A stretch of DNA of 64,000 bases, from the NCBI GenBank assembly GCA_900473045.1, contig UCKS01000006.1:1-64000 (forward strand), written 5' to 3'. Of this stretch, positions 38,734 to 58,276 are shown piece by piece. Below the pieces are notes generated by a model. The model was not told the DNA's origin, did no database searches, and was given only the letters and a program-made list of their open reading frames with translations. Made by a program: the position numbers and the translations under genes. The number at the start of each line of letters is the position of its first letter. Positions within the stretch are counted from its first letter, which is position 1. Source of the DNA: Hyphomicrobiales bacterium (GTDB taxonomy: Bacteria; Pseudomonadota; Alphaproteobacteria; Rhizobiales; Rhizobiaceae).

Positions 38734-39921
38734 TCAGTTCTCGAGGTCCTGAACATCCTGCGCGACATTGGTGACACCATTTGCAATGCCGATCGGCCGG
38801 GCCACAAATGCCAAGAATTTCGTAATGTCGACGGACGGATGGCGCGATGCATAGATCACGTCACGGCTCTTGACCGGGAATGTCTGTCCCACGATCAGGC
38901 TATCGGGCTGGGTCATGTTGAGACGGTAAACGATCGGATAACGCCCAACGCTGTCCGGAGCCATGCCCTTGCGTAACATGGCATTGAACCGTTCGGTGCC
39001 CAGCAGGCTCATGACGACATCCGGCTCTTCATAACGGAAGACAAAATAACCCTTGGCATCAATGGTGGTGTCATTACCGCCGCCGGCAAGCGCCACAGCT
39101 TCGAGCAGATTAAGTTCGCTCGCGCCGAATTCCACGCGCTTGTTGATCTTGGTCGAACCGAGAACCGTGAAGGTGCGGGGCTCGCGTGTCACGAAAATCT
39201 GGTCACCGGGCTGGACCCGAACATTTTCGGACGGATTTTCGATGATCGATTTCAGCAGCGCCGTGCCGGTCTTCTTGCCACGGACCAATGTCACGTAGGT
39301 TTCGTAAGGCTGAGCAACCGGGCCGCCCGCCTTGGCAATAACTTCGTTAATCGTCTCGCTGACCAGGCTCAAAGGCACGACGGATGCGCGGCCGACTGCA
39401 CCTGACACGGTCACGTTGCGCGATGCTGTCGACAGGCTCGTAACGATCACATCCGGTTCGACAGCTTTTTTCACAAGAGCAGCGAGAATTGTCTCGCGGG
39501 CCTGCTCCAGTGTCTTGCCGGCGAACTGAACCTGACCAACATAGGGGATCGTCGCCATGCCATTGGGCTGCACGACCAGGTCCATATTCGTCTGCTTCGA
39601 ATCTGTTGTGGAAAACAAGCCGTCGCTGCCGGCTTCGAAGATCGTCACTTTGAGCGCGTCGCCAACACCGATAACGACGCGGCCAACGCCGCCACCGATA
39701 CCGAAGCGGCGGTTGAGCGCCGTTGCCACATACTCGGACACGAGACGCGCCGAACGGGCATCTACGTCGACAATGTCATAAGCGACTGTGTTCTGCCGGC
39801 CGATTTCCTGCGCCGAAAGGCCGGCATCCTTGGTAATTGCGGAAGAAAGAGGGCCTTCGCCCGGAACAGCCTGACATCCCGTGAGAAGGGCGCAAACCAG
39901 GATTGCATTCAAACGGTTCAA
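38734..39921 (-). CDS. rkpU: capsule export outer-membrane lipoprotein (Wza/KpsD type), RkpU-like
   Basis: This 395-residue protein has an N-terminal lipoprotein signal (ALLTGCQA), a polysaccharide biosynthesis/export domain (VGDALKVTIFEAGSDGLF, VQPNGMATIPYVGQVQFAGKTLEQA) and soluble ligand-binding SLBB-like repeats (VTVSGAVGRASVVPL, FTVLGSTKINKRVEFG). Such proteins form the periplasm-spanning or outer-membrane channel for capsule. In S. meliloti rkpU lies next to rkpA, which matches the divergent position here. It should work with the KpsE/M/T transporter further along. Confidence 0.88.
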   Translation of the reverse strand: MNRLNAILVCALLTGCQAVPGEGPLSSAITKDAGLSAQEIGRQNTVAYDIVDVDARSARLVSEYVATALNRRFGIGGGVGRVVIGVGDALKVTIFEAGSDGLFSTTDSKQTNMDLVVQPNGMATIPYVGQVQFAGKTLEQARETILAALVKKAVEPDVIVTSLSTASRNVTVSGAVGRASVVPLSLVSETINEVIAKAGGPVAQPYETYVTLVRGKKTGTALLKSIIENPSENVRVQPGDQIFVTREPRTFTVLGSTKINKRVEFGASELNLLEAVALAGGGNDTTIDAKGYFVFRYEEPDVVMSLLGTERFNAMLRKGMAPDSVGRYPIVYRLNMTQPDSLIVGQTFPVKSRDVIYASRHPSVDITKFLAFVARPIGIANGVTNVAQDVQDLEN

Positions 39922-40333
39922 TTAACGCACTCCGAAATCGACCCTATTTGGTATTCGTATGACCAAAGGTGCCGCTGCATTCTAATAACCGGAATTCCGA
40001 TCGCCCCTTGAAAAGCACAATCATTGTCCCACAACAAGCCATTTGCGGTCACATCCGCTTAAATAATTCGCAGTGCGCCTTTCTGGCAATAGGTTCTCCA
40101 CAATGGGTTACGGCCTGTCTTCATAATTGTCTTGGGCCGCACAGTACCCCGTGTATGTTCCCGGGAAAGGGTTGAAACCTCGTGAACATAATTTAAAAAA
40201 AATGCTAATATAGCGGAAATCCAAAAAATACCGCGAGACTCAGTGACCCCGGGGAAGAAGTTCAGGTTGCTTTTTCGTGCATCAGGTGCAATCAGCAAGA
40301 TCATTCACAGCAGTTCAGAGCGTTCGATATAAT
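39922..40333. other. divergent promoter region rkpU/rkpA
   Basis: This 412 bp between two divergent genes must hold both promoters. The section 40185-40250 is strongly AT-rich (runs of A and T, TAATATAG), which suits the rkpA promoter. I cannot fix -35/-10 boxes with confidence. A weak reading frame on the minus strand (40059-40304) has no supporting feature. Confidence 0.5.
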
Positions 40334-43300
40334 ATGACAGTTGAAATCATAGGGCGCGCATGTCTCGCTCCTGGCGCGAATTCGCCGCAGGCGTTGTTTC
40401 GAATCTTGCGTCAGGGCAAATGCACGGTCACGCGTATTCCATCTGATCGTTGGGACCTTGCACGCTTCTGGCACCCAGTCATCGGCAATCCGGGCAAGAC
40501 CTATTCCTTTGCTGCCGGCGTGCTCGATAGTATCTATGATTTCGACCCGGCAGCCTTTGGCATGTCGCAGCGCGAAGCGATGCACATGGACCCGCAGCAG
40601 CGGGTGTTGCTGCAACTGGCCTGGCGCGCGCTGGAAGATGCCAACATCTCGGTCCCGTCGCTGCATGGTGAAAATGTCGGCGTTTATATCGGTGCGTCCA
40701 GCCTCGACCACGCCAACCTGACCGTTGAGGATCCCGCTGCCGCCGGTCCCTATTTCATGACTGGAAACACGCTTTCGATCGTTTCCAACCGTATTTCCCA
40801 TATTTTCGGCCTAAGCGGCCCGAGCATGACGGTCGATACCGCCTGCTCGTCGTCACTGGTCGCGCTCGATCAGGCGATGCGCGCGTTGAACGCAGGTGAA
40901 ATCGATACGGCGATCGTTGGCGGCATCAATGTTCTTGCCCACCCGCTGCCGTTTGTCGGCTTTGCGCAGGCGCGCATGCTGTCGCCGGAAGGGCTCTGCC
41001 GCGCCTATGACAATGACGGCGCCGGTTACGTCCGCGCCGAGGGTGGTGTGGTGTTCGTTCTGCGCCGTTCCGACAGGGCACGGCAGGAAAAAGACCGCAG
41101 CTATGCCAAGATCGTTGCGACCGGCGTCAATTCTGCCGGACGCACCAACGGTATTTCGCTGCCGTCGCGTGAGGCACAGGCCAATCTGCTGCGCGCCATC
41201 TATGAAGGCAACAATATCGATTCCAACCAGGTTGCTTTCGTCGAAGGCCACGGCACGGGCACCAAGGTTGGCGACCCCTCCGAAGTCTGGTCAATCGGTA
41301 CGGTGATCGGTGCCAACCGGCGCGCGCCGGTACCGATCGGCTCGATCAAGTCGAACATCGGCCATACGGAGCCGGCATCCGGCCTGTTCGGCATGCTCAA
41401 GGCCGTCATGGCGCTTGAAAACAACTATCTGCCAGCGTCGCTGCATTTCGACACACCGAACGAAAACATCGATTTCGATGGTCTGAACGTCCGCGTGACC
41501 GGCAACCCGATCGAACTGCTGCGCGGCAAGCGCGCGCGTCTGGCAGGCATCAATTCCTTCGGTTTTGGCGGCGCCAATGCCCACGTCGTCATCAGCGATC
41601 CAGACCCTGTCCAGGACGAACGCAGCCGCAACAACGCCACTGGCCATGTTTTCATGGCAAGCGCCCATACTGTAGGCAGCCTTGAGGAATTGCTGAAGTC
41701 GTACAAATCGACCTTTGCCAAGACCTCCAAGGATGAAGCCCGGGCCGTCATTGCCGCGTCCGGTGCCAACCGTACGCAGATGCGCCACCGTTTTGCCGCA
41801 CGCAGCGACCATCCCGAAGACATTATTCGTGCTATTGCCAGCCACCTTGAAAAGCCGGCATCCGACATCGGCGAGACCGGCGAAGCGGTGACGAAGGACG
41901 CAAAGGTTGCGTTCGTCTTCTCCGGCAACGGCTCGCAATGGGCCGGCATGGGTGTCGAGGCCTTCCGCGAGAACCTGCATTTCCGCCAGTGCTTCACCTC
42001 GGTGAGTGCGTTGTTCAAGTTCCATTCGGACATCGTGCTGACAGATCTGCTGACAGATCCGGATCTGGACAAGAAGCTGTCCGACACCAAATACGCACAG
42101 CCGCTCTTGTTTGCGGTCCAGGCGGCGCTGTCGGATTCGCTTGTCGCCATGGGCATCAAGCCCACGGCCGTGTTCGGTCATTCCGTCGGTGAAATCGCTG
42201 CAGCCTATGCTGCCGGTGCTCTATCGCTCGTGGATGCGGTCTCGATCGTTGCCAAGCGCTCGCTGCACCAGGACCTCCTGGCCGGTCAGGGCACGATGGC
42301 CGCCGCCATGCTCAGTGAAGATGCGGCAAATGCCTTTGCCAAGTCGCGCGGTCTTGAGCAAATCTGCGTCGCCGCAATCAACGCGCATAACTCCGTAACG
42401 ATTTCCGGCCCTGCACACGAGGTTTCCGCCTTCCGCGACGCTGCCCGCAAGGCGAAGATCCCCGTCCAGATTCTCGATATCAACTATCCGTTCCACCACC
42501 CGATCATCGATCGCGCCAAGAAGGCCTTCCTTGCCGATATCCCGGATATCGCGCCGCGCAAATCGGAGCTTGCCTACCTGTCCACCGTTACCGGTGCGCG
42601 CATGGATGGGACGCAGCTCGATCCCGATTACTGGTGGAAGAACGTTCGCGAACCCGTCCGCTTCCAGGCTGCGACCGAGGCAGCCATCGAACTCGGCTGC
42701 AGCCTGTTCATTGAAATCTCACCGCGGCCGATCCTTTCCTCCTATCTCAAGGAAACGGTCAAGCAAGCGTCGATCCCAGGAACCGTGGTTCCGACCTTGC
42801 TGCGCGACGGCGGCGAAAAGGGCCAGGATCCGATCTCACGCGCCATGGCGCGTGCGATCGCCCATGGCGCGGCTTTCGACGAGGCACGCCTGTTCGGCAA
42901 ACGCAACGCGTTTGTCCGCCTTCCGAACCTGCCGTTCGAACAGACCGAACTGCGCCCGGCATCGACGAGCGACTCCACCGACCTGTTCGGCCGTGGCTCG
43001 AAAACTCCCTATACGCTGGCTGGCTGGCGGGCCGATCTCAACAGCGGCAGTTGGAAGAACCATATCGACGCGCATCTGTTCCCCGATCTGGCGGAGCATA
43101 TTGTCGATGGCAAGGCTATCTTGCCGGGCAGTGGTTTCATCGAGATCGCCATTTCGGCTGCGCAGCAATATTACGGCACCACAGAAGTCGATATTACCAA
43201 TCTGGAGATCGTGCGGCCGCTGGAGCTAGCCGACAACCGGATGATGGAGCTATCGACCATCCTGTCGCCGGAAACCGGCGATATCGAAATCCGCTCTCGT

Positions 43301-46300
43301 GAGCGTCTCTCCGAAGACGACTGGGCTGTGCATGCGGTTGCACGCAGCCGCAAGCCGATCCCGTCCGACGAGATTGCTTCCGGGAACGCCTTTGCCAGCC
43401 TGGAAAAAACCGCCACCGTAACGCCTGCGAAAGCCTACGAGACTGCCCGTCAATTCGGCCTGGATTACGGTCCGCGCTTCCAGTTGATGGTGAAGGCCGT
43501 CTCCTATGGCGACCGTTTCATCGATGTCGAACTGAAAGAGCCCGAGAAGACGGGTAACCCCTTTGTCACCTACAGCCTCAATCCGATTTCCGTGGATGCA
43601 ACCTTCCATGGAATGGTCGCGCTGTTTGACCGCTTTACCGGTGATGCCGGCGGGGCACCCTATATTCCGGTGCGCTTCGGGTCAGTTCGCCTCACGAATT
43701 CCGGCCTGATCATCAAGCGGGCTGTGGTTGAAATCGAGCGCATCAGCGCAAATTCGATCAAGGCAAAGTTCCGTTTCTTCGGCAAGGCCGGTGAATTGAT
43801 TGCAGCATTCGACGATTGTCGCTTCCGCCGGACCTATCTGCGCCAGCACAAGACACTGGACATGCTGTCCTTCCACTACGAAGCCGTGTCTTCCGACCGT
43901 GCTGCGCCGCTTGCGGCATTGGAGCGATCGAAGACACTGCCGCTGCCGCTGCTTCCCGCAACGGAAGAGAACGGCATCGACAACACGACACTCCTGTTCA
44001 ACGCGGCAATCTACCGCGCCTGTCACGAAATCGCGCTTAAGCTCGGCAAGGACACGGCCAAGATCGATACACGGTCACTACCCGGCGATTTTGCGTTCCG
44101 CTGCTTCCTGGCCAATTGTCTCTATGTCCTTGAAGATGCAGGTCTGTGTGAACACAAGGCCGGCAGCTGGAAGATCGCCGAAGAATACTCGCTACCTCCG
44201 GTCGGCGATATCCTCAAGGAGCTCTATGGCGAATGCTCCGAGCGCGCCGTTGAGGCGGTGCTGATCAACAACTCCTACGCCGAGGCGCTTGACAGGATCG
44301 ACGACCTCTTTGCCTCCGAACTATCGGGCAATGAGATTGAAGCGGCGAGCAAGCAGCAAAGCTTCATCAGCGATGCAACGCTTGACCATCAGACCGTTCA
44401 CTCCCAATCCACACGCCAACGCATGGATCTGGTTTTGGCGGCGGTCGAAAAGGCGCTGACCAGCGAAAGCGGCAAAAGCGACCTGCGGATTGTCGAGGCG
44501 GGCACCGTCTCTGCCGGTTTCACCCGCAAGCTTGCAACGCTGGCTGCAAAATACCGTGCCAGCCTGATCGTTGTCGAACCACGCGAAAATGCCCAGCGCA
44601 ACCTCGAAATCGCCTTCGAGGAAGACGCACATGTCCGTGTTCTGAAGAAGGACGCTTTCTCAACGCTTCCCGCTTTCGATCTCGTTGTCAGTGCATCAGA
44701 TACGATTTTTACACTGATCGATGAAGATGGCGCCATTCGCAATGCACTGCGCGTCTGCCTGCAGGAAAATGGGGCACTTATCGCTGCCACCAATGCACCG
44801 ACAGTGTTCAGCGATTTTGCTTTCGGATTGACCGAGAGCTGGTTCGCCCGCACCCAGGCCGTCGAGTTTCCGATCGGCAAACTGGCAACGGTGACGCAAT
44901 GGCAGAAAGACCTGACCGATCTGGGCTTGCGCAATATCACTGTTGAAGACCGCGAGTTGTCGCACGGAAACATCATTACCGTCGAAGCGCAGGGTGGTCA
45001 GTTTACCGACGCCGCCCAGACGAACGATGCGCAGCTTGTGGGTGTTGCAAGGCCGGTACTCGTTCTGCATGAAGGCAGTGTTTCGAGCCTGCAAAGCAAA
45101 CTGCCGTCGGGCAAGGATGCCGTTCAGGCACCTCTTATCCAGGTACAGTTGACGGGTGATTTTGAAACCGACAAGGATAAGATCGCCGAGGCGATCGAGG
45201 GATTGAACGAGAAGCCGGTACGGGCGGTCTATCTGTCCGCCCCGACAACCGCGGATCGTAGTCGAGATTCGGCGGCTCTGCAGAATCGTGTCCTGTCGCT
45301 CAGTGCCTTTGCCGAGGCGCTTCGCCAGCATTATGCCCATGCGGAGCCTGCAGCCGATCAACGTCCCTGCTTGGTGATCGCGGCTCAAGGTGGCGCGCCC
45401 GTCACGCTGAGCACGCGCGACAAGGATGTGTCCGGTTCAAGCGTCAACAGCGGCCTGTGGGCATTCGCCCGCGTGCTGCAGAACGAATATGATTTCCTCG
45501 ATATCCATTCGCTCGATTTCACCGGCCCGAAGGCCAGCGCCGGCAATCAGCTTGCCGCTGCGATCTCGATGCTTGGCGATGCCAGCGGAAACCGCGAATG
45601 GCTGCTGGACGGAAAGAGCGGTATCCTTTCGGAGATCCGTGCCGTCCCCGGCCCGGTCGACCAAAGCTTGCGCAAGACGACCGATTTCAAGGCCGCAACG
45701 ATCCGCCAGCGTGTCAGTTCGCAGGTCGGCAGCATTGCCTGGGAGCAATCCGAAGTCCCGCAGGCAGGGCCGAACGATGTCGTCGTTGCGGTTGCTGCAA
45801 CCGGTCTGAACTTCCGCGACGTGATGTGGGCGATGGGGCTTCTGCCGGAAGAAGCGCTCGAAGACGGCTTTGCCGGAGCAACGATCGGCATGGAGCTTTC
45901 CGGCCATGTCGTTGCCATCGGCAGCGGCGTCAAGGATCTTTCGGTTGGCGATGCCGTGATGGCGATCGCGCCGGCGGCTTTTTCCACCCACGTTGTTGTT
46001 TCGCGCTCGGGTGTCGCCCGACTGCCGGAAACCGTCAGCCCCGTTGCGGCAGCAACCGTTCCGGTTGCCTTCCTCACTGCCTATTACGCAATGATCGAGC
46101 TTGGCCGCATCCGGGCAGGCGAAACGATCCTGATCCACGGCGCTGCCGGCGGTGTTGGCCTGGCTGCCTTGCAGGTTGCCAAGCTTGCCGGAGCCAAGGT
46201 CATCGCCACGGCTGGAACACGTGAGAAGCGTCGTTTCCTGAAAATGCTCGGCGCCGATCACGTCTTTGATTCACGTTCGCTGGCCTTCGTCAACGACATC

Positions 46301-47920
46301 CTCGGCGTCACCGGCGGCGAAGGCGTCGATCTGGTTCTGAACTCGCTGTTTGCCGAAGCCATGGAACAGAGCCTATCGCTGGTAAAGCCGTTCGGCCGCT
46401 TCCTCGAACTGGGTAAGCGAGACTACTATGCCGACAGCAAAATTGGCCTGCGGCCCTTCCGCCGCAACATCAGCTATTTCGGCATCGATGCCGACCAACT
46501 GCTGGTCAATGCGCCGGATCTGACGAAACGGATTTTCACCGAAATCGGTGCACTGTTCGAAGAAGGCAAGCTTGTGCCGCTGCCCTACCGTGCTTTCGGG
46601 TTCGACGAGATTGGCAATGCCTTCCGCCTGATGCAGAACGCCGGCCATATCGGCAAGATCGTCGTACTGCCTCCCGTTGCCGGACGCGATGAGGTTTCCA
46701 ACCGGCCTACCGGCCGCATGTCTATCGATGGCCTCGGCGTGCATCTGGTCGTCGGCGGTATCGGCGGGTTTGGTCTCGCCGCAGCCAACTGGCTGGTCGA
46801 AAAGGGCGCGCGCAATATCGCGCTTGCTACCCGGCGCGGCATTGCGGACATCGAGACCCTCGAAGTCATCAAGCGCTGGGAGAACATGGGCGTTTCGGCA
46901 ACCATTCATGCCTGTGACGTGACCGACGAGACCGCTGCGGGTGGTTTGTTGAAAGCCCTTCGCCAGATCGGTCCGCTGAAAACCGTTGTTCACGCAGCGA
47001 TGGTTCTCGATGACGCATTGATCAACAATCTCAACCGCGAGCGCAACCGCCCGGTTATCGACGTGAAGGCGCAAGGGGCAGCCGTTCTCGACCGCTTGAC
47101 ACGCACTGACGCGCTCGAACACTTCATCATGTTCTCGTCGGCAACGACATTGGTCGGCAATCCAGGTCAGGCCAACTACGTGGCTGCCAACGGTTATCTT
47201 GAGGGTCTTGCACGTGCACGGCGGCTTGAAGGCCTGCCGGGGCTGGCGATCGGCTTCGGTGCAATTGCCGACAAGGGCTATCTGGCACAAAACACCGACG
47301 TCAACGATCTGCTCTCCAAGCGCATCGGCAAGACGGCGCTGAAGGCGCAATCCGCCCTCAACCAAGTCGAGAGCTATATCCGCTCCGATCCGGGCACGGT
47401 GGATGCCGCTGTGGCAATGATCTCCGAACTTGATTGGGCTGCGGCGCGCAATCTGCCGGTTGTTCGCAACGCCCTCTTCGAGGTCATCCTGCGAACGGCT
47501 GACCAGCACACCGCAGGCAGCGATGGCACGACCATGGATCTCGTGGCCATGATCGATGGTAAATCGCCACAGGAAGCCGAAGACATTCTCTATGATCTGG
47601 TGGCGAGCGAGATTGCCGCCATCCTGCGCGTGTCGAAGGATACGATCTCACGCAACAAGATCCTCAAGGAAATCGGCCTCGACAGTTTGATGGCCGTGGA
47701 ACTGGGGATCAGCTTCCAGCAGAATACCGGCTTTGACATGCCGTTGAGCGGCGTCGCGGATAACACGACCGTCGGCGATGTGGCGCGCAAGCTTTATGAC
47801 AAAGTCAGCAAGCGGGATCAGGGCAGCAGCGAAGACAGCGAGCCAGCCGACAACAAGATTGTCAACGAGCTCACCCAGCGTCATACCGGCAACGGTGTGG
47901 AGAAGGCAGTCGGCCAATGA
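40334..47920 (+). CDS. rkpA: giant reducing polyketide/fatty-acid synthase RkpA
   Basis: This 2528-residue type I synthase has domains in this order: ketosynthase (1-430; C171 in DTACSSS, H306, H344), acyltransferase (520-830; S617 in GHSVGE), dehydratase (890-1190; H922 in HIVDGKAILPG, D1088), a degenerate methyltransferase-like region (1380-1540), a linker, enoylreductase (1790-2110; ILIHGAAGGVG), ketoreductase (2135-2380; VVGGIGGFG, Y2282) and ACP (2416-2490; S2451 in GLDSLMAVEL). All reductive domains look active, so it should make a saturated chain iteratively. There is no thioesterase; release is probably by the next protein, RkpG. In S. meliloti rkpA is needed for K-antigen. I chose the ATG at 40334, though the ribosome site is weak. 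Confidence 0.93.
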   Translation: MTVEIIGRACLAPGANSPQALFRILRQGKCTVTRIPSDRWDLARFWHPVIGNPGKTYSFAAGVLDSIYDFDPAAFGMSQREAMHMDPQQRVLLQLAWRALEDANISVPSLHGENVGVYIGASSLDHANLTVEDPAAAGPYFMTGNTLSIVSNRISHIFGLSGPSMTVDTACSSSLVALDQAMRALNAGEIDTAIVGGINVLAHPLPFVGFAQARMLSPEGLCRAYDNDGAGYVRAEGGVVFVLRRSDRARQEKDRSYAKIVATGVNSAGRTNGISLPSREAQANLLRAIYEGNNIDSNQVAFVEGHGTGTKVGDPSEVWSIGTVIGANRRAPVPIGSIKSNIGHTEPASGLFGMLKAVMALENNYLPASLHFDTPNENIDFDGLNVRVTGNPIELLRGKRARLAGINSFGFGGANAHVVISDPDPVQDERSRNNATGHVFMASAHTVGSLEELLKSYKSTFAKTSKDEARAVIAASGANRTQMRHRFAARSDHPEDIIRAIASHLEKPASDIGETGEAVTKDAKVAFVFSGNGSQWAGMGVEAFRENLHFRQCFTSVSALFKFHSDIVLTDLLTDPDLDKKLSDTKYAQPLLFAVQAALSDSLVAMGIKPTAVFGHSVGEIAAAYAAGALSLVDAVSIVAKRSLHQDLLAGQGTMAAAMLSEDAANAFAKSRGLEQICVAAINAHNSVTISGPAHEVSAFRDAARKAKIPVQILDINYPFHHPIIDRAKKAFLADIPDIAPRKSELAYLSTVTGARMDGTQLDPDYWWKNVREPVRFQAATEAAIELGCSLFIEISPRPILSSYLKETVKQASIPGTVVPTLLRDGGEKGQDPISRAMARAIAHGAAFDEARLFGKRNAFVRLPNLPFEQTELRPASTSDSTDLFGRGSKTPYTLAGWRADLNSGSWKNHIDAHLFPDLAEHIVDGKAILPGSGFIEIAISAAQQYYGTTEVDITNLEIVRPLELADNRMMELSTILSPETGDIEIRSRERLSEDDWAVHAVARSRKPIPSDEIASGNAFASLEKTATVTPAKAYETARQFGLDYGPRFQLMVKAVSYGDRFIDVELKEPEKTGNPFVTYSLNPISVDATFHGMVALFDRFTGDAGGAPYIPVRFGSVRLTNSGLIIKRAVVEIERISANSIKAKFRFFGKAGELIAAFDDCRFRRTYLRQHKTLDMLSFHYEAVSSDRAAPLAALERSKTLPLPLLPATEENGIDNTTLLFNAAIYRACHEIALKLGKDTAKIDTRSLPGDFAFRCFLANCLYVLEDAGLCEHKAGSWKIAEEYSLPPVGDILKELYGECSERAVEAVLINNSYAEALDRIDDLFASELSGNEIEAASKQQSFISDATLDHQTVHSQSTRQRMDLVLAAVEKALTSESGKSDLRIVEAGTVSAGFTRKLATLAAKYRASLIVVEPRENAQRNLEIAFEEDAHVRVLKKDAFSTLPAFDLVVSASDTIFTLIDEDGAIRNALRVCLQENGALIAATNAPTVFSDFAFGLTESWFARTQAVEFPIGKLATVTQWQKDLTDLGLRNITVEDRELSHGNIITVEAQGGQFTDAAQTNDAQLVGVARPVLVLHEGSVSSLQSKLPSGKDAVQAPLIQVQLTGDFETDKDKIAEAIEGLNEKPVRAVYLSAPTTADRSRDSAALQNRVLSLSAFAEALRQHYAHAEPAADQRPCLVIAAQGGAPVTLSTRDKDVSGSSVNSGLWAFARVLQNEYDFLDIHSLDFTGPKASAGNQLAAAISMLGDASGNREWLLDGKSGILSEIRAVPGPVDQSLRKTTDFKAATIRQRVSSQVGSIAWEQSEVPQAGPNDVVVAVAATGLNFRDVMWAMGLLPEEALEDGFAGATIGMELSGHVVAIGSGVKDLSVGDAVMAIAPAAFSTHVVVSRSGVARLPETVSPVAAATVPVAFLTAYYAMIELGRIRAGETILIHGAAGGVGLAALQVAKLAGAKVIATAGTREKRRFLKMLGADHVFDSRSLAFVNDILGVTGGEGVDLVLNSLFAEAMEQSLSLVKPFGRFLELGKRDYYADSKIGLRPFRRNISYFGIDADQLLVNAPDLTKRIFTEIGALFEEGKLVPLPYRAFGFDEIGNAFRLMQNAGHIGKIVVLPPVAGRDEVSNRPTGRMSIDGLGVHLVVGGIGGFGLAAANWLVEKGARNIALATRRGIADIETLEVIKRWENMGVSATIHACDVTDETAAGGLLKALRQIGPLKTVVHAAMVLDDALINNLNRERNRPVIDVKAQGAAVLDRLTRTDALEHFIMFSSATTLVGNPGQANYVAANGYLEGLARARRLEGLPGLAIGFGAIADKGYLAQNTDVNDLLSKRIGKTALKAQSALNQVESYIRSDPGTVDAAVAMISELDWAAARNLPVVRNALFEVILRTADQHTAGSDGTTMDLVAMIDGKSPQEAEDILYDLVASEIAAILRVSKDTISRNKILKEIGLDSLMAVELGISFQQNTGFDMPLSGVADNTTVGDVARKLYDKVSKRDQGSSEDSEPADNKIVNELTQRHTGNGVEKAVGQ

Positions 47921-49332
47921 GCGATAACGAGGAACATAACAACGTTTCGAAGATGAACAGCAGCCTGAAGGAAAACCTTCTGGACAAGATGCGCAATGCG
48001 CATCTATCGTCGGAACGCAACCGCATGGCTCGTTCCGAACGCGACGTTCCTCCGCCGGTCAGGCGCAAGCAGACGCGGTTCGAGGATTTGCCGGAATACA
48101 AGCAGGTCCAGACCCAGAAAGTTGCCAGTGAACAGCTGGGCATCGACAACCCGTTCTACCGCGCGCACCAGACTGCAGCCGGCGCAACGACGGTGATTGA
48201 CGGCCGCAAGCTGATCAACTTCGCGTCCTATGATTACCTCGGTCTCAACCGGCATCCCCATGTTCTGGCTCAAGCGCGCGACACCATCAACACTTTCGGC
48301 ATCTCGGCATCGGCCAGCCGGCTGGTGGCGGGAGAACGCCCGGCCCATGCCGAACTGGAAGAGCGCATAGCCGCCTTCTATGGCGTCGAAGCGTCCGTCT
48401 GTTTCGTCAGCGGCTACCTCACCAATGTCGCGGCAATCAGCTGCCTGATGGGTCCGAAAGACCTCGTCGTGCATGACGAGTTCATCCACAACAGTGCGCT
48501 TGCCGGCATCAAGCTCTCCGGCGCCACCCGGCGCCTGTTCAAGCACAATGATGCGAACGATCTGGAACACGTGCTGCGCACGGTTGCAGGCGACTACCGG
48601 CGTATTCTGGTGATCGTAGAGGGCGTCTATTCGATGGATGGCGATATCGCCAACCTGCCGGCCATTGTGAAGTTGAAGAGCGAATATGGCTTCTGGCTGA
48701 TGGTTGACGAAGCCCATTCACTCGGCATTCTCGGCAAACGCGGCAAAGGCACGTTTGAGCATTTTGGCATCGATCCACGCCAGATCGACATCTGGATGGG
48801 AACGCTCTCCAAGACGACATCAAGCTGCGGCGGCTATATCGCCGGTAGCGGCGCTCTGGCGGCCGTGCTGAAGGCAACCGCTGGCGGCTTCGTCTACAGC
48901 GTCGGCCTTGCACCTGTTCTGACGGCATCGGCCATTGCCAGCCTCGACATTCTGGAAGGCGAGCCGGAACGCGTCGCCGCCTTGAGGCGCAACGGCGCGC
49001 TTTTCCTCAAGCTTGCCCAGGAAGCCGGCCTCGATACGGGTCTGAGCGCTGGTTTTTCCGTGGTTCCGGTTCTGGTCGGCGATTCGCTGCGTGCGGTGCA
49101 ACTGTCGAACGATCTTCTTGCCGCCGGTATCAATGCGTTGCCGATCATCCATCCTGCAGTTCCAGAAGGGATGGCACGTTTGCGGTTCTTCATCACCAGC
49201 GAACACACCGAGGAACAGATCCGCCAGACGGTGGCGATGACCGCTGAGAAGCTCAAGGAGCTGACCGAGCGGAATTTCGGTCTCGCATCGATCGATGTCC
49301 AGCAGATGATGAAGATGCTCGCCTCCCGATAA
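47917..49332 (+). CDS. rkpG: alpha-oxoamine synthase RkpG (KBL/serine palmitoyltransferase family)
   Basis: This 471-residue PLP enzyme condenses an acyl thioester with an amino acid to give an alpha-amino ketone. It has an N-terminal charged extension of about 80 residues, then INFASYDYLGLNRHP, the cofactor-binding DEAH (D264, H267) and the PLP lysine K299 in GTLSKTTSSCGGYIAG. The family includes 8-amino-7-oxononanoate synthase and serine palmitoyltransferase. Overlap with the synthase stop (ATGA) and lack of a thioesterase in RkpA suggest it takes the chain from the RkpA ACP. Biotin synthesis genes are not nearby, so BioF is unlikely. Confidence 0.92.
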   Translation: MSDNEEHNNVSKMNSSLKENLLDKMRNAHLSSERNRMARSERDVPPPVRRKQTRFEDLPEYKQVQTQKVASEQLGIDNPFYRAHQTAAGATTVIDGRKLINFASYDYLGLNRHPHVLAQARDTINTFGISASASRLVAGERPAHAELEERIAAFYGVEASVCFVSGYLTNVAAISCLMGPKDLVVHDEFIHNSALAGIKLSGATRRLFKHNDANDLEHVLRTVAGDYRRILVIVEGVYSMDGDIANLPAIVKLKSEYGFWLMVDEAHSLGILGKRGKGTFEHFGIDPRQIDIWMGTLSKTTSSCGGYIAGSGALAAVLKATAGGFVYSVGLAPVLTASAIASLDILEGEPERVAALRRNGALFLKLAQEAGLDTGLSAGFSVVPVLVGDSLRAVQLSNDLLAAGINALPIIHPAVPEGMARLRFFITSEHTEEQIRQTVAMTAEKLKELTERNFGLASIDVQQMMKMLASR

Positions 49333-49386
49333 CGCGCACACCCGAAACGGCTAGGCACCATCCATGAACCGAACCGGTCCTGCGGC

Positions 49387-50196
49387 ATGACTCATGTGAT
49401 CATTACCGGCGGCTCAAGTGGGATCGGCTTGGCGCTGGCGCATATCTACGCTGCACGCGGCGCACGTTTGTCGCTTCTGGCACGCTCACTGCCTGCGCTT
49501 GAAGCAGTGCAAGCAGAACTCGCAAGAGATCACCGCGAAACATCCATTCATATCGAAAGTGCCGACGTTACCGACGAAGATCAGACATTTGCGGCAATCC
49601 GGAGATGCGAGGATGCCTTCGGCCCCTGTGCCATCTTGATTACATCTGCGGGGATCGTCGAGCCCGGACGGTTCGAAGCGCTATCCTCAGCCGCCTTCAA
49701 CCGGCAGATTCGGACGAACCTGTTGGGCAGCGTCCATGCGGTGCGTGCTGTTTATGCGGCCATGAAAGAACGGCGCTCCGGCCGGATCATGCTGGTATCG
49801 TCCGGCGCGGGCTTGATCGGTATCTACGGATACACGGCCTATTGTGCCTCGAAGTTCGCCTTGCATGGGTTTGCCGACGCTCTCCGCTCGGAAGCGAAGC
49901 CGCATGGTGTCAGTGTTTCCGTCTGTTTCCCGCCGGATACAGAAACACCGCAGTTTTCCCGAGAATTGGAACATCGGCCATTGGAAGCAACGGTGATTAT
50001 GGGGCGCGTTGCTCCCTGGTCCTCCGCGACTGTTGCGCTCCGGATCGCACGCGCCATCGACAAAGGCCAATTCGAGGTGTTTTTCGGCTGGACGCTGTGG
50101 GCGCTGGGGCGCTTCGGCTCGGCGGTGAAGCCTGTTCTCAACTGGTGGTTCGACAGGGGTATTCGACGGATCGGCGGCGGTGGTGAACGGCCATAG
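49387..50196 (+). CDS. rkpH: short-chain dehydrogenase RkpH, 3-ketosphinganine-reductase-like
   Basis: This 269-residue SDR has the NAD(P) motif GGSSGIG at residues 8-14, NNAG-equivalent ITSAGIV, and catalytic Y152/K156 in YTAYCASKFALHGF. The segment CFPPDTETPQF near residue 182 is the hallmark of 3-ketodihydrosphingosine reductases (PPDTxTP). A C-terminal hydrophobic stretch (FFGWTLWALGRFGSAVKPVLNWWF) could anchor it to the membrane, as in that family. After RkpG makes an amino ketone, RkpH would reduce the 3-keto group, giving a sphinganine-like amino alcohol. Confidence 0.9.
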   Translation: MTHVIITGGSSGIGLALAHIYAARGARLSLLARSLPALEAVQAELARDHRETSIHIESADVTDEDQTFAAIRRCEDAFGPCAILITSAGIVEPGRFEALSSAAFNRQIRTNLLGSVHAVRAVYAAMKERRSGRIMLVSSGAGLIGIYGYTAYCASKFALHGFADALRSEAKPHGVSVSVCFPPDTETPQFSRELEHRPLEATVIMGRVAPWSSATVALRIARAIDKGQFEVFFGWTLWALGRFGSAVKPVLNWWFDRGIRRIGGGGERP

Positions 50197-50289: not shown

Positions 50290-51891
50290 TTGGCGTTGAC
50301 GTCGCTCCACATGCACTACCATCCGCTGACGCTGACCTTTTTCTGCTACGCGCTGGCCTGTGCTGTCATCCTGTATACGGATAAGTTTGCCCTGCCCGCA
50401 CGCGAGCGCCGCAGACACCGGCCGCCAATCAGCCGCCGGCGTACTGCCGTCGATATCCTGGCGCGGCTGCCGATCATCGCGCTGGTGTTTGCCGGCTTCT
50501 TCTCGATCTCCTGGCGCCCTCTCTATGCCAGCGCCGGCGCTATGAGCTTCTTCGTCATCTTCACCGGCATATCGCGGGCCAAATACAAATTCATTCGCGA
50601 ACCTCTGGTCTTTTCGGACATCGCCCTGGTCGCGGATGTCTTCAAGTACAAGTCGATCTTCTACGCCAACTCGCTCAATATCGTTTTCTGGCTCGTCGCC
50701 TTCCTGTACGTCTTCGGCGTCTCGGCGCTGTATATGTATTTCGAGCCCAGCGTCCTGCCCACCAGTCACAAGCTCCTGTGGATCACTCTGATGATCCTGA
50801 TCGCGGATCTGCCCTGGATTTTGCTGTTTTATGGCCCGGTGAACAGGCCGGTCGCTGACTTCGTGCAACATCTCGTCGGCAAACCGAACGTCAAGGTCAG
50901 CACCATCCGCTTTGGAACCTTCGCGTCCGTCATTTTCCATTTCATCCTCTGGCTCGGCCGCCGCCGTGAAAAAATCGTTGCCGAATTGCAGGAGCGCTTC
51001 TTCGCCGCCGTCCAGGACCTGATCGGTCACGACGCCGACAACAAAGCGCCGCTGGTCATTGTCTGGCAGTCGGAATCCTTCATCGACATGCGCCATTGCG
51101 GGGTAGACAGCATCAAGCTGCCGACCATCGACAGGCTGCAGAAACTTGCCGTGCAATGGGGCCGCCTGGCGACGGTCTTCGAGGGCGGTTATACGCTGCG
51201 CACCGAGTTCGCCGTCTTGAGCGGCCTTGTCCCCGACGACCTGCATATCGATGCGAGCTATCCCTACCTGCGGGCAAGCCACTATACCGATGTGGTCTGG
51301 CCGACGAAGCTGAAGAATGCGGGCTGGAGCACGCATTTCATGCACCCGTATGACCGGACATTCTTCCTTCGCCATAAAGCCATGCCGCAGCTCGGCTTTG
51401 AAAAGATGACCATGCTCGACGAGTTCGACCACGATCCCGTCCGCGATGGCCCCTATGTCTCGGATGCGGCCCTGACCCGCAAGGTTATCGCTGACGTGGA
51501 AGGCCAGGCGGACGACAAGGGCAGCTTTCTGTTCGTCGCATCTATGGCCAACCATGGTCCGTGGGAGCCCAACCGCGTTGACGGAATGGCCGATCCTGTC
51601 GCGATCTACCTCGAAATCCTCCAGCAATCCGACAAGGCACTGGGTGAGCTTGTCGACCACCTGAACAGGCTCGACCGCCCCGTCTGGCTGGTTTTCTATG
51701 GCGACCACGCACCCTTGCTGAAATCCTTCGCCGATCCTTTCCCCGATCCCCGCACCGATTATTTCATCGTCCCCTTGGCGGCCGCGCGTAAACCACAGAA
51801 TACACCGTCATTCCCGCGCAACGAGGAACCCTGGAAACTGCTCGAAGCCATGCTGAAACATGCCAATCTGCAGAAGGATGATCTGCGATAG
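50290..51891 (+). CDS. rkpI: membrane phosphatase/phosphoglycerol-transferase-like protein RkpI
   Basis: This 533-residue protein has an N-terminal membrane part with four or five helices (residues about 8-30, 52-100, 128-195). A large periplasmic alkaline-phosphatase-superfamily domain of LtaS/MdoB type follows: VIVWQSESFIDMR (metal), the nucleophile threonine in GGYTLRTEFAVLSG, MHPYDRTFFLR, ASMANHGPWEPN and FYGDHAPLL. Such enzymes transfer phosphoglycerol or phosphoethanolamine groups from lipids. I use the TTG at 50290 with GAAGG upstream; an ATG at 50311 is the alternative. Position matches S. meliloti rkpI. The substrate, capsule or lipid, is not known. Confidence 0.87.
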   Translation: MALTSLHMHYHPLTLTFFCYALACAVILYTDKFALPARERRRHRPPISRRRTAVDILARLPIIALVFAGFFSISWRPLYASAGAMSFFVIFTGISRAKYKFIREPLVFSDIALVADVFKYKSIFYANSLNIVFWLVAFLYVFGVSALYMYFEPSVLPTSHKLLWITLMILIADLPWILLFYGPVNRPVADFVQHLVGKPNVKVSTIRFGTFASVIFHFILWLGRRREKIVAELQERFFAAVQDLIGHDADNKAPLVIVWQSESFIDMRHCGVDSIKLPTIDRLQKLAVQWGRLATVFEGGYTLRTEFAVLSGLVPDDLHIDASYPYLRASHYTDVVWPTKLKNAGWSTHFMHPYDRTFFLRHKAMPQLGFEKMTMLDEFDHDPVRDGPYVSDAALTRKVIADVEGQADDKGSFLFVASMANHGPWEPNRVDGMADPVAIYLEILQQSDKALGELVDHLNRLDRPVWLVFYGDHAPLLKSFADPFPDPRTDYFIVPLAAARKPQNTPSFPRNEEPWKLLEAMLKHANLQKDDLR

Positions 51892-51922
51892 TGCCCGCGC
51901 CGTTCTTCAAGGACCTGTGACG

Positions 51923-53221
51923 ATGGCTTTGCCGGAAGCGCCGGAGCGGCGCGTCTTCCTTTTTCTACAGGGACCATCCTCGCCGATCTTTGCCAAGATC
52001 GCCGACCGGCTCGAGGCCAGAGGTCATCACTGCCTGCGGATCAACCTCAATCCGGGCGATCAGATCTTCTGGCGCCGCAAGGGCGGATACAATTACCGTG
52101 GCCGGGGCGGCAATGATTGGCGCGACTACCTTGCCTCTTTCATGGATCGGCATGCGGTCACCGATCTCGTTCTGCTGGGCGAGGAGCGTCCCTACCATCT
52201 CATTGCTCTAAAGGCTGCCAAAGACCGCGGCATAGCGGTATCGGTCGTTGAAATGGGTTATCTGAGGCCGGATTGGTTGACACTTGAACGCAATGGAATG
52301 TCGTCCAATTCACATTTTCCCAACGATCCGCAGCAGATCGTCGATGCGGCCCGTACCCTTCCCGAACCGGACTGGAAGAGACGGTATACGCAGAGTTTTA
52401 CCGTCGATGCGGCCTACGACCTTCTCTATAATCTGCCGAACGTTTTCCTGTGGTTTCTCTTTCCGCACTACCGCCGCCACGCGTTGTTTCATCCTCTGGC
52501 AGAATATGCCGGCTGGATGATGCGACTGGCGGGGAGCCGGAAAAGAGCATTGGCGGCAACAACGCTCGTCCAACACGTGCTTGCTGACGACGCCCCGTTT
52601 TTTGTTTTCCCCTTGCAATTGCAAACTGATTTTCAGCTGCGGGCACACTCGCCTTACAACGATCAGCGTGAGGCGATTACCGAGGTGATCACCTCCTTCG
52701 CCACTCATGCCCCGCGCACAGCCCGTCTCGTGGTCAAGGTGCATCCTCTCGACAACGGGCTCATCGATTGGAAAGCTTACACCGAGGCACTGGCAACCAA
52801 GGTTCATATTGGTGAGCGTGTCCAGTTCCTCGATGGCGGCGACCTGAATACGCTGCTGTCAAGGACCGCAGGTGTCGTCACCATCAACTCGACGGTCGGG
52901 CTTCATGCCTTGCAATTGGGTAAACCCGTGAAAGTGCTGGGAACCGCCGTATTCGACATTGCCGACCTCAGCGACCAGAGAGCGCTTGATCAATTCTGGG
53001 AAACTCCGGAAAACCCGCACGAAGTGGTCCGCACATCCTTTTTCCGTCTGCTTGCGGCGGCAATCCAGGTTCGGGGCAATTTCTACTCGGCCAGCGGCAC
53101 GGATGCCGGGGCGGACGCGATTGCGGAAAGGTTACATAACCGGTCGATCAATCAACCCGGCGGATTCATCGCCCCACCGCCGCGCAGCAAGCCACGCAAA
53201 ATCAGTCCTCGTCCTCACTGA
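51923..53221 (+). CDS. rkpJ: KpsS-like capsule Kdo transferase RkpJ
   Basis: This 432-residue Capsule_synth-family glycosyltransferase has RVFLFLQGPSSPIFAKIAD at the start, LRINLNPGDQIFW, YFE-like EMGYLRPDWLTLE, PFFVFPLQLQTDFQL, VKVHPLDNGLIDW and the nucleotide-sugar motif INSTVGLHALQLGKPV. KpsS adds the first beta-Kdo to the phospholipid anchor of group 2 capsules in E. coli. Here the acceptor might be the lipid made by RkpA/G/H. I chose the ATG at 51923 with AAGGAC upstream. It is the last plus-strand gene and converges on kpsE. Confidence 0.9.
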   Translation: MALPEAPERRVFLFLQGPSSPIFAKIADRLEARGHHCLRINLNPGDQIFWRRKGGYNYRGRGGNDWRDYLASFMDRHAVTDLVLLGEERPYHLIALKAAKDRGIAVSVVEMGYLRPDWLTLERNGMSSNSHFPNDPQQIVDAARTLPEPDWKRRYTQSFTVDAAYDLLYNLPNVFLWFLFPHYRRHALFHPLAEYAGWMMRLAGSRKRALAATTLVQHVLADDAPFFVFPLQLQTDFQLRAHSPYNDQREAITEVITSFATHAPRTARLVVKVHPLDNGLIDWKAYTEALATKVHIGERVQFLDGGDLNTLLSRTAGVVTINSTVGLHALQLGKPVKVLGTAVFDIADLSDQRALDQFWETPENPHEVVRTSFFRLLAAAIQVRGNFYSASGTDAGADAIAERLHNRSINQPGGFIAPPPRSKPRKISPRPH

Positions 53222-53330: not shown

Positions 53331-54668
53331 TTAAGTACGGTCGCGAATGTTATAATAGCCCATGACAAAAACCGCCCATGCGAAGAGCAGGCCCAGTCCC
53401 ACCAGGAATGAATTCAGGAAGCGCGCCGGGTACTGAGCCAATTGGGACAGCGTCGGCTCGATGAAGACGGCCAGGTATCGCTGTTTGTTGTTCGCATCGA
53501 TACGCGCCTTTTCGAGGCTCCCCAGGGATGCCGTATAGGCACGCTCGGCAAATTCGCGTTCGGTTTCCAGAATTTCGTATTTCTGAATCCGACCGGCAAC
53601 ATCGCCAGTGGCTCCCGAGGATAGGCCGTCCGCACTGCCGCTACCCAAACGTTGACGCTCGGATGCGAGCTGTTCTTCCGCGCTGGCAATACGGGCTTTG
53701 AGCACACGCATGCGCGGCGTGTCGTCGCTCATTTGCGTTTTCGCCGTTGCGAGATCGGCATTCATCTGTACCAATTGCGCTTCCAACCCGCCAATTAGCT
53801 GGGCTGCAAGTTTAGCTCCTTCGACAGGATCCACCTCCTGTGAAGCATCGCGATATTGACGTACCCCCATTCGCGCCTTTGCAAGGCGGTTTTCTGCCAG
53901 GTACATTTCATCCCGCGCAGCTTTGAGGACGCCGTCACGGGCCGATGCAGAGAGATTGTTGATCACTATCTCACTTTGTTGGATAACAAATTTGGCGATC
54001 GCCTGCGATTGCTGGGGATCAAATGCCTTGACCTGCAACTGCATGATGCCCGACGCGTGATCGAAATTTATGTCGATCATCTTGCGCCAATAGTCGAGTT
54101 TACTTTCCAACGGTAGGCCGGGCGCCATCCCGTAGAAGTAGTCTAACCCCCGAGCTGCGTAGATTTTTTCGAGATCAAACTTTTTCTCGACTTCCGCCAG
54201 CATTCTTTCACTACGAACAAAGTCCATCAGGATGTAGCTATCGGAGAGCGTATTGCCCGTCGATGCCTGAGAAAACATCCCAAGAATATCAGGCGCGCCT
54301 GCTGCCTCGATGCTGCGGACAGAGAACGATGCCGAACTATGATACTGATCCGAGGCGATGAAAATCATATAGATTGACGCCAGTACCGCCGGCACTGCAA
54401 CAAAAGCCAAAAAACTGCCGATAATCATGGCATGCCGCAGCCGAAGCGAACCCAGCCAAGTCTGTTTTTTTACCTGCTGCGTTATAATCCTGTGAAATTT
54501 GTTGGGGCTCTTTGTTTTTAGCTTAGGCACAAGCATGCGATCAGCGTTGCCTAGCAGGCCTTCAAGCAGATGCACGCTTTTCGACTTGACGACATCGGTG
54601 TTTTTCAGCTGATCCACAGCGTCATCCTTCTGCACAGCTCCTGAAGCTGTATTTTTGACGATCGCCAT
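53331..54668 (-). CDS. kpsE: capsule export inner-membrane protein KpsE
   Basis: This 445-residue polysaccharide co-polymerase/export protein has a long cytoplasmic N-terminus, a first membrane helix around 80-105 (MIIGSFLAFVAVPAVLASIYMIF), and a periplasmic coiled-coil domain with SFSVRSIEAAGAPDILGMF, LQVKAFDPQQSQAIAKFVIQ and EYLAENRLAKARM-type heptads. A C-terminal helix (FLNSFLVGLGLLFAWAVFVM) follows. It bridges the ABC transporter to the outer-membrane channel. It directly follows kpsT with no gap. Confidence 0.9.
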   Translation of the reverse strand: MAIVKNTASGAVQKDDAVDQLKNTDVVKSKSVHLLEGLLGNADRMLVPKLKTKSPNKFHRIITQQVKKQTWLGSLRLRHAMIIGSFLAFVAVPAVLASIYMIFIASDQYHSSASFSVRSIEAAGAPDILGMFSQASTGNTLSDSYILMDFVRSERMLAEVEKKFDLEKIYAARGLDYFYGMAPGLPLESKLDYWRKMIDINFDHASGIMQLQVKAFDPQQSQAIAKFVIQQSEIVINNLSASARDGVLKAARDEMYLAENRLAKARMGVRQYRDASQEVDPVEGAKLAAQLIGGLEAQLVQMNADLATAKTQMSDDTPRMRVLKARIASAEEQLASERQRLGSGSADGLSSGATGDVAGRIQKYEILETEREFAERAYTASLGSLEKARIDANNKQRYLAVFIEPTLSQLAQYPARFLNSFLVGLGLLFAWAVFVMGYYNIRDRT

Positions 54669-55328
54669 CTATCGTTCCTTCATATTGCTATCGTGGGCGC
54701 GGATGGCGTCCTCAACATCATCGTAATAGGTTAATTTGCCATTTTCCATAACCACCCCGCAATCACAATAACTGCGAATGGTTGACGTACTGTGTGATAC
54801 CATGATCACATCGGAATCTTGAAGCCTGCTTTCAAAAACGACCTGGCACTTCTTTTTGAAGTTTGTATCGCCGACAGCGGTAATCTCGTCCACGAGATAA
54901 TAGTCGAAATTGACGCCCATGCTCAACCCAAAAGCAAGGCGGGCCTTCATCCCGGAGGAATAGGTCCCAACCGGCGCTTGGAAAAATTGCCCTAGATCGG
55001 CGAATTCCTCGACGTAGGCGATTAGTTCCCGCGTGTCGACGCCGTAAATACGTGCTACGAAGCGCACATTCTGCTCGCCCGTCATGGTGCCTTGAAAGCT
55101 CCCCTGAAACCCCAGCGGCCAAGAGATCTTACCTTTGCGAATGATCCTGCCGCTATCCAGCCGGATCGTACCCGCAATCAGGCGAAGCAACGTGGATTTT
55201 CCCGCACCATTGCGGCCAAGCAGGCCGATACTCTTGCCCCGTTGCAAAACAAGAGAAGCGCCATTGATAATTGGCTTTTTGATGCCTTTGGTACGCGCGA
55301 ACTTGGTCGCCTGCTCAAGCCTGATCAT
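54669..55328 (-). CDS. kpsT: capsule export ATPase KpsT
   Basis: This 219-residue ABC ATPase of polysaccharide exporters has Walker A GLLGRNGAGKSTLLRLIAG, Q-loop and WPLGFQGSFQGTMTGEQN, the signature YSSGMKARLAFGLSM, Walker B YYLVDEITAVGD and H-loop MVSHSTSTI. It powers export of lipid-linked capsule with KpsM. Its start overlaps the kpsM stop by four bases, the normal coupling, although kpsM itself is truncated. Confidence 0.93.
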   Translation of the reverse strand: MIRLEQATKFARTKGIKKPIINGASLVLQRGKSIGLLGRNGAGKSTLLRLIAGTIRLDSGRIIRKGKISWPLGFQGSFQGTMTGEQNVRFVARIYGVDTRELIAYVEEFADLGQFFQAPVGTYSSGMKARLAFGLSMGVNFDYYLVDEITAVGDTNFKKKCQVVFESRLQDSDVIMVSHSTSTIRSYCDCGVVMENGKLTYYDDVEDAIRAHDSNMKER

Positions 55329-55681
55329 TGGTCATTTCTCAATAATGCGGACGATGATGTGAAGATGACCATTCCAATAAACAATGTCAAAAATGCGAAT
55401 ATATAAACATAGGGCGATGCCCAGACATAACCGCCCGGTTTGCTTTCGAACCGCGCGTCCATTTCGTGAATGAGCAGGGCAGAAACGACCCGTATATGTG
55501 TTACGACATGTTCCAAATCTGGCTGCTTTCCTAACCACAGGATGCGTGAGTAGCGATCATGGCGACTCACATCCCGGAACGCCCTGCGGCTTACCTGACT
55601 AGCTCTTACTCTCTTGAAGCCAGTTTTCAAGTTGGCAAACAATTCGAGCCGTTGCCGATAACCGCATCCGCCGGACGTCAT
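55325..55681 (-). pseudogene. kpsM: kpsM with an apparent internal in-frame deletion
   Basis: The frame codes 118 residues, where KpsM (ABC-2 type capsule permease) has about 260 and six membrane helices. Residues about 64-88 (VVSALLIHEMDARFESKPGGYVWA) match the start of rhizobial KpsM before the first helix. The last 25-30 residues (YIFAFLTLFIGMVIFTSSSALLR) match its final helix and tail. The middle, about 170 residues with at least four helices, is missing and is not found in other frames. Start (2 bp after the kpsC-like stop) and end (4-bp overlap with kpsT) are normal, so only the centre was lost. The N-terminal 60 residues are longer than usual. Confidence 0.8.
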
Positions 55682-58115: not shown

Positions 58116-58276
58116 GAGTGACACTCCAAAACCAAAACGAGGCATCCGGTTACAACCAGGACGCCTTTAGATCAAATCAAAACGGCCGATTTCGCTCTTT
58201 GCCGGCAAAAACAGGCAGAAACGCCAGGTCCCGGCACTTGGCCAGGTCCGGCACTTGGGAAGAGTGCCGGCCGGGA

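Follow-up and report, generated by a model that had tools for sequence, protein, structure and literature searches.

Gene content of the rkp locus

The window analyzed here (the whole stretch of 64,000 nucleotides, positions 1 to 64,000 of contig UCKS01000006.1 from a Hyphomicrobiales bacterium with a genome of 6.78 Mb, its near named relatives being Pararhizobium and Rhizobium) contains an rkp capsule locus, in which rkpU (minus strand) is followed by rkpA, rkpG, rkpH, rkpI and rkpJ (plus strand) and then by kpsE, kpsT, a kpsM remnant, a kpsC-like gene and kpsF (minus strand). The rkpA-J genes, in the same order, form the rkp-1 region of S. meliloti, which is tied to K-antigen (pSymB locus L190). 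We propose, with about even confidence, that the rkp operon supplies the starting lipid of the capsule, a sphingoid base with a phosphoglycerol head, and adds 3-deoxy-D-manno-oct-2-ulosonic acid (Kdo) to it. The proposal is built on gene content, intact motifs, conservation, genomic linkage and a distinct clade of KpsS-type Kdo transferases.

The rkpA product is a fully reducing type I polyketide synthase (PKS) of 2528 aa, encoded by one open reading frame (40334-47920, +) that begins with an ATG at 40334 or with an upstream GTG at 40277. Its Pfam domains come in the order ketosynthase (40340-41452, residues 3-373, PF00109/PF02801), acyltransferase (41912-42817, residues 527-828, PF00698), dehydratase (43049-43834, residues 906-1167, PF21089/PF14765), enoylreductase (45767-46666, residues 1812-2111, PF08240/PF00107/PF13602), ketoreductase (46736-47269, residues 2135-2312, PF08659) and acyl carrier protein (ACP; 47597-47788, residues 2422-2485, PF00550). 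Active-site motifs are there (DTACSSS, EGHGTGT, NIGHT, GHSVGE, HxxxGxxxxP, GGxGGxG and, in the ACP, GLDSL), and the acyltransferase motif GHSVGE...PFHH is of what we take to be the malonyl type. The Pfam list of the protein includes no thioesterase or reductase release domain, in agreement with the original prediction of a complete reducing set lacking a means of release. The interval between the dehydratase and the enoylreductase (~640 residues, window positions about 43835-45766) has no Pfam family match; part of it resembles, by eye, a degenerate methyltransferase. The rkpABCDEF genes of strain AK631 correspond to a single large rkpA in other annotations (PMC7902896). The sponge swf PKS was dropped as a candidate relative of RkpA; swf is set apart from WcbR/RkpA in PMC3908369.

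The start of rkpG (47917-49332, +) overlaps the end of rkpA in an ATGA, bearing out the coupling of the two genes read earlier from the sequence. By its Pfam and NCBIfam scores, phylogeny and fold, RkpG is a pyridoxal 5'-phosphate (PLP)-dependent alpha-oxoamine synthase (AOS). Its original assignment to the serine palmitoyltransferase (SPT) family stands at the level of the AOS superfamily and fails at the level of SPT itself, as it scores only 275 of 500, 303 of 640 and 214 of 670 bits needed with the SPT models NF047599, NF047600 and NF047603, respectively, and lies outside the SPT clade. The best NCBIfam score is with the BioF model TIGR00858 (363 of 426 bits needed), and none of the NCBIfam cut-offs listed for RkpG is passed. 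This score speaks for RkpG being a biotin-type 8-amino-7-oxononanoate synthase acting on a pimeloyl thioester, a possibility that we regard as extremely unlikely given that 363 bits is below the cut-off, that RkpG is outside the branches of E. coli BioF and KBL, and that it adjoins a PKS in all 80 loci compared below.

In a tree of 82 AOS sequences, including five alphaproteobacterial SPTs as well as E. coli BioF and KBL, RkpG falls in a clade of 60 sequences (support 0.994) that also takes in AOS from Pseudomonas, from Burkholderiales and from one plasmid each of Planktothrix and Streptomyces, and that excludes all SPT, BioF and KBL references; the five SPTs group by themselves (support 1.0). 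The same clade holds 14 Pseudomonas-type AOS and that of the Pseudomonas plasmid locus L184 (PfSgaB itself is not in the tree). On the sub-cut-off scores and the tree placement, RkpG was rejected as a canonical SPT or BioF. RkpG has 46.6-49% identity with three AOS of Pseudomonas, compared to 26.6-31.5% with two SPTs, and its motif windows are nearly identical to those of the Pseudomonas PKS-linked AOS. At the histidine that presumably stacks on PLP, 34 of 35 core AOS have HNS (the other one HDS) vs. HAS in 14 of 20 references, and in place of the PPATP-type loop found in the compared SPTs, RkpG has LPIIHPAVPEG. The comparison of the fold with SPT and BioF that had been suggested as a check gives no separation, with KBL, SPT, ALAS and BioF structures all matching at Z about 30-34 (model pLDDT 68). 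No canonical SPT over the cut-offs of NF047599 and NF047600 was found elsewhere in the host genome (genome-wide search with these two models).

The AOS is fused to a PKS in locus L134, in Planktothrix (L188) and in Streptomyces (L189), which supports a direct hand-over of the acyl chain. RkpG has an N-terminal extension of ~75 residues (47917-48150) with a helix predicted at low confidence at residues 15-40, and RkpA has a tail after its ACP; judging from the model, these are possibly PKS-AOS docking elements.

The rkpH product (49387-50196, +) is a short-chain dehydrogenase/reductase (SDR) carrying PPDTETPQ, an instance of the PPDTxTP motif that we assume to be that of 3-ketosphinganine reductases and that had been recognized in it before. 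Eleven of 12 aligned relatives have PPDTxTPQ, and the remaining one PSDTDTPQ. A family profile of these 12, searched against PDB sequences, places yeast TSC10, a 3-ketodihydrosphingosine reductase (KDSR), at the top of 406 (E 8e-44), with a small lead because the runner-up reaches 1e-42. With the single RkpH sequence as query, many FabG-like proteins outrank TSC10. By motif and profile, RkpH is the KDSR-like SDR of the cluster and its predicted reductase.

RkpI (50290-51891, +; PF00884), left undiscussed in the original prediction, has an N-terminal membrane part with about five hydrophobic segments by window average, which do not decide the sidedness of the catalytic domain. A family profile of 14 relatives (rhizobia, Pseudomonas, Burkholderiales and other Proteobacteria) matches GacH first (E 2e-33), followed by lipoteichoic acid (LTA) primase and synthases. 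E262, T302, H422, D472 and H473 are invariant in 14 of 14; T302 is presumably the threonine nucleophile and the others metal ligands. Overall, the profile and these residues indicate that RkpI is probably an LtaS/GacH-type phosphoglycerol transferase. The known members of this type act on cell-wall glycopolymers of Gram-positive bacteria, and a sphingoid acceptor would, to our knowledge, be new.

RkpJ (51860-53221, +), the next-but-one gene after rkpH, is KpsS-like as had been stated: it matches PF05159 above the cut-off (320 bits) and the KpsS model NF050054 below it (217 of 600 bits). This putative initiating Kdo transferase belongs to a distinct KpsS clade (see below).

Relatives of the locus and the Pseudomonas precedent

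Conservation of the neighborhood was assessed for the best 80 of 143 RkpG relatives in genome contigs, with at most 10 kb of flanking sequence. RkpA adjoins RkpG in all 80, and RkpH, RkpI and RkpJ are near it in 79, 72 and 71, respectively, a recurrence that makes the association more than chance. A 6-kb contig (L072) misses RkpH, RkpI and RkpJ altogether, and one of 4.3 kb (L021) misses RkpJ. Downstream of L073, no RkpI-like protein was recognized among the longest open frames, which were inspected by eye with no family search.

The closest biochemical guide comes from P. fluorescens MYb115, where C24, C26 and C28 sphinganines depend on the PKS SgaA and the AOS SgaB (Peters 2025, PMC12134224). 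PfSgaB has SPT activity, condensing acyl-CoA with L-serine and hardly using alanine or glycine; SgaC is an SDR presumed to be a KDSR-like ketone reductase, and lipids 154 Da heavier are described as "most likely" phosphoglycerol sphingolipids (PMC12134224). The Sga and Rkp systems share an iterative type I PKS beside an AOS plus a KDSR-like SDR; the Sga products were measured, and the Rkp products are predicted. The sphingoid-type product that had been predicted for RkpA-G-H is, by this analogy and by the common clade of RkpG and the Pseudomonas PKS-linked AOS, well supported.

Reducing PKSs without a release domain, from which an AOS releases the chain, are also found in fungal clusters for sphinganine analogues (FUM1, FUM8, SphA). 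Their FUM13 (fumonisin) and SphF (sphingofungin) perform a KDSR-type reduction as expected in rkp, and SphA structures are among the PDB matches of RkpG, the only route by which fungal sequences were compared here. The fungal products are toxins or inhibitors, made without capsule genes.

The identity of the amino acid bears on the product. RkpG could follow the same route with alanine, glycine, threonine or another amino acid, yielding a 1-deoxysphingoid or an aminoketone. Its position outside the SPT clade, its loop LPIIHPAVPEG in place of a PPATP-type loop and a fold that does not discriminate among AOS kinds are in line with this; on the other hand, the Pseudomonas PKS-linked AOS have nearly the same motif windows, PfSgaB uses serine almost exclusively (PMC12134224), and a product without the 1-hydroxyl would leave RkpI no obvious site. 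We consider serine the most likely substrate and the other amino acids rather improbable.

The sga genes are presented as a secondary-metabolite cluster in PMC12134224, and the main text has no mention of capsule, rhizobia, polysaccharide, lipoteichoic or LTA synthase. In listings and first abstract lines of the open-licence literature, we likewise recognized nothing that connects capsules with sphingolipids of PKS origin. We observed here that Pseudomonas-type PKS-AOS loci also carry capsule Kdo-transferase and LtaS-like genes. In L184, from a Pseudomonas plasmid, the genes after the PKS-AOS pair are those for PhyH, KpsC, GNAT, an LTA-synthase family protein, SDR, KpsS and KpsC, and further on KpsF, kdsB and kdsA. 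Four genes lie between its AOS and SDR genes; the numbering of the locus tags RS19800 and RS19775 suggests an equal count for MYb115.

AOS with 76-81% identity to that of L184 were found in 14 of 298 genomes of the genus of G054, taken to be Pseudomonas on grounds that include identity to the named Pseudomonas plasmid protein (a fifteenth match at 44%, L217, was excluded). Within up to 20 kb, these 14 loci show LtaS-like genes in 12, KpsC-type in 12, KpsS in 10, SDR in 10, PhyH in 7 and GNAT in 12; the set includes one locus cut by a contig end (L213), two partial loci (L203 and L215) and one (L216) with PKS-AOS and no capsule genes recognized in 20 kb. The PhyH and GNAT proteins of the Pseudomonas-type loci (L184, L203-L216) might hydroxylate or N-acylate the sphingoid base. 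Plasmids of Caballeronia insecticola and Paraburkholderia dioscoreae carry SDR, LTA-synthase family, PKS, LpxC-like deacetylase and AOS genes together, along with export or capsule genes, and a Shinella plasmid combines RkpI, KpsS, PKS, AOS, SDR and export genes. The LpxC-like deacetylase between PKS and AOS on the former two plasmids (L185, 13907-14833; L186, 13887-14801) is an unexplained partner of the sphingoid pathway.

Capsule Kdo transferases and the candidate anchor lipid

The linkage between the PKS-AOS pair and capsule Kdo transferases was examined in 398 Pseudomonadota genomes. Twenty were positive for the pair (19 with an AOS adjacent or fused to an RkpA-type PKS, plus the host genome; AOS regions were inspected for a PKS at 28 places, lower-scoring AOS counting as negative), 59 for PF05159 (E 1e-20 or better) and 14 for both. 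PF05159 is thus present in 14 of 20 PKS-AOS genomes vs. 45 of 378 others (Fisher, p 1e-8, kinship ignored). Among the 59 PF05159 genomes, an RkpI-like protein (at least 230 bits with the RkpI profile; at most three candidates per genome were scored, so weak members can be missed) occurs in 11 of 14 with the pair (the exceptions being G265, G167 and G262) vs. 3 of 45 without it (p 4e-7, likewise ignoring kinship).

The KpsS tree draws on 35 of the 45 genomes that have PF05159 and lack the pair (L243, L245 and L254 gave no KpsS sequence), and the pair-positive rows include loci from plasmids, genome contigs and Pseudomonas-type genomes outside the 398. Removal of sequences more than 85% identical reduced 62 to 58 (27 of them pair-positive), to which one E. 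coli sequence was added. All 27 pair-positive sequences form one group (bootstrap 97) together with L219, L220 and L221, which are exactly the genomes with RkpI and no detected PKS-AOS pair; E. coli KpsS is outside. The pair label changes twice along the tree; in 1000 shuffles it changed 19.4 times on average and never fewer than 11 times. With members from rhizobia, other Proteobacteria, Paraburkholderia and Pseudomonas, the group is not a single taxon, albeit taxonomy contributes to the clustering on both sides of the split. In G303, G327 and G317 (L219, L220 and L221, respectively), the KpsS and RkpI-like genes are adjacent or close.

The PKS-AOS product could also be a secondary metabolite or act as a secreted signal, its genes being located in a capsule locus only incidentally. 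The SgaAB products protect C. elegans (PMC12134224) and 6 of the 20 PKS-AOS genomes show no PF05159 gene. This explanation is very unlikely, as it is largely contradicted by mutants (an exoA rkpH double mutant of S. fredii makes neither exopolysaccharide nor capsular polysaccharide, PMC8227245; rkpA is among the genes affecting capsular polysaccharide in S. meliloti 1021, PMC5539429) and runs against the statistical linkage and the KpsS tree.

The preferred reading is that the product is the predicted capsule anchor; the substrates, the product, the order of RkpI and RkpJ and the anchor use are what we infer. RkpA would iteratively build a saturated long acyl chain on its own ACP, and RkpG would release it as a 3-ketosphinganine-type ketone through a decarboxylative condensation in which the amino acid is most likely L-serine. 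RkpH would reduce this ketone to a sphinganine-like base. RkpI would then transfer a phosphoglycerol head from phosphatidylglycerol onto this base, giving a single-chain lipid, a look-alike of lyso-phosphatidylglycerol. RkpJ, of the KpsS type, would add the first Kdo to this sphingoid phosphoglycerol lipid, KpsC-type enzymes and polymerases would extend the chain, and KpsMTE/RkpU would export it. Such a lipid shares its single chain and its head group with lyso-phosphatidylglycerol, the type of acceptor that E. coli KpsS is described to use.

The E. coli group 2 capsule system has PF05159 Kdo transferases and the KpsE, KpsT and KpsF partners in common with the rkp locus; its KpsS, using (lyso)phosphatidylglycerol as the acceptor, is outside the RkpJ clade, and no PKS-AOS, SDR or LtaS-like gene is listed in a 12.7-kb portion of the capsule locus of E. 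coli HH97. According to PMC10148158, nearly all ATP-binding cassette (ABC)-dependent capsule systems of Gram-negative bacteria share a Kdo-glycosylated (lyso)phosphatidylglycerol terminus. The rkp-1 region, according to PMC4881576, takes part in K-antigen export and makes a specific lipid carrier (an idea of the 1990s, attributed to Kiss 1997), and poly-Kdo secretion in strain 1021 requires it. These two descriptions speak for a rival reading, in which the sphingoid lipid from RkpA-G-H is needed for capsule export as a helper, a regulator or a membrane component, the covalent anchor being ordinary (lyso)phosphatidylglycerol and RkpI decorating the sphingoid lipid or the capsule. Poly-Kdo of S. 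meliloti 1021 reportedly has a "phospholipid anchor", judging by the title of Fraysse 2005, which would fit this as well. We nevertheless consider a helper role somewhat unlikely: it predicts neither a separate KpsS clade in PKS-AOS genomes nor KpsS directly among SDR and LtaS-like genes, and the cited anchor chemistry is that of E. coli and of further species in which no PKS-AOS is known to us.

The predicted use of the RkpA-G-H-I product as an anchor has gene linkage and the KpsS tree on its side. The further claim, that the capsule starts on this lipid rather than on phosphatidylglycerol, is not established in view of the anchor reported for strain 1021. In our own reconciliation, a sphingoid-phosphoglycerol lipid would count as a phospholipid and need not contradict that report; RkpI may in this way allow the phospholipid-anchor and sphingoid views to be reconciled.

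Several points weigh against a sphingoid anchor. Should the anchor of Fraysse 2005 be a glycerophospholipid of the ordinary kind, the proposed anchor step would not hold in S. meliloti 1021. LtaS-type enzymes act outside the cytoplasm and KpsS at the inner face, so that a flip or another order of steps would be needed. RkpI and RkpJ are not found within the flanks in seven loci uncut by contig ends (L069, L070, L073-L076 and L080), and RkpI may act on a different acceptor, since G303, G327 and G317 have RkpI and KpsS with no PKS-AOS pair detected in the genome. In Pseudomonas and Burkholderiales, the SDRs belong to another subfamily than RkpH and lack PPDTxTP; the inner branch with most PKS-linked AOS is poorly supported in the AOS tree (0.225), the fused AOS of L137 is outside the RkpG clade, and SPT does not stand out among AOS in the comparison of folds. 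The 6 PKS-AOS genomes lacking PF05159 count here too, and the Fisher and shuffle tests both ignore species kinship.

More tentatively, and with somewhat less than even confidence, we suggest that ABC-exported capsules include a second class, widespread in Alphaproteobacteria, Burkholderiales and Pseudomonas, with a PKS-made sphingoid phosphoglycerol anchor and a dedicated KpsS clade; the sga cluster of MYb115 would be one such capsule locus, its LtaS-like gene making the phosphoglycerol sphingolipids. If true, a made-to-order sphingolipid capsule anchor would be common among plant- and animal-associated Proteobacteria, the near-universality of the Kdo-(lyso)phosphatidylglycerol terminus would need qualifying, and many genomes without canonical SPT would make sphingolipids.

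Export genes and minor observations

In loci L140 and L142, as well as L136, L138 and L139, an AOS of the wider RkpG clade has no RkpA-type PKS nearby. The former two have an RkpH-type SDR (PSDTDTP/PPDTDTP) nearby, an arrangement that perhaps represents a PKS-free sphingoid route.

The remaining capsule genes of the window are all on the minus strand. RkpU (38734-39921; PF02563 and SLBB) is a Wza/KpsD-like polysaccharide export protein. On the far side of rkpJ are a KpsE-like export protein (53331-54668, below the cut-off of TIGR01010), a KpsT-like ABC ATPase (54669-55328, PF00005), the kpsM remnant (55331-55516), a KpsC-like Kdo transferase with a single PF05159 match in 454 aa (55684-57048) and a KpsF/KdsD-type sugar-phosphate isomerase for Kdo supply (57105-58145; SIS and CBS domains, TIGR00393 over the cut-off). 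The middle of kpsM is missing, with alignment only to residues 6-53 and 234-261 of a 261-aa homologue; an intact KpsM beside KpsT and KpsE is absent from the window, and the group-2-type export set there is incomplete. The kpsM genes in L009 and L048 consist of C-terminal parts only. Two uninterrupted kpsM relatives (88% and 52% identity) are located on contig C94 of the same genome, which also has a further PF05159 match.

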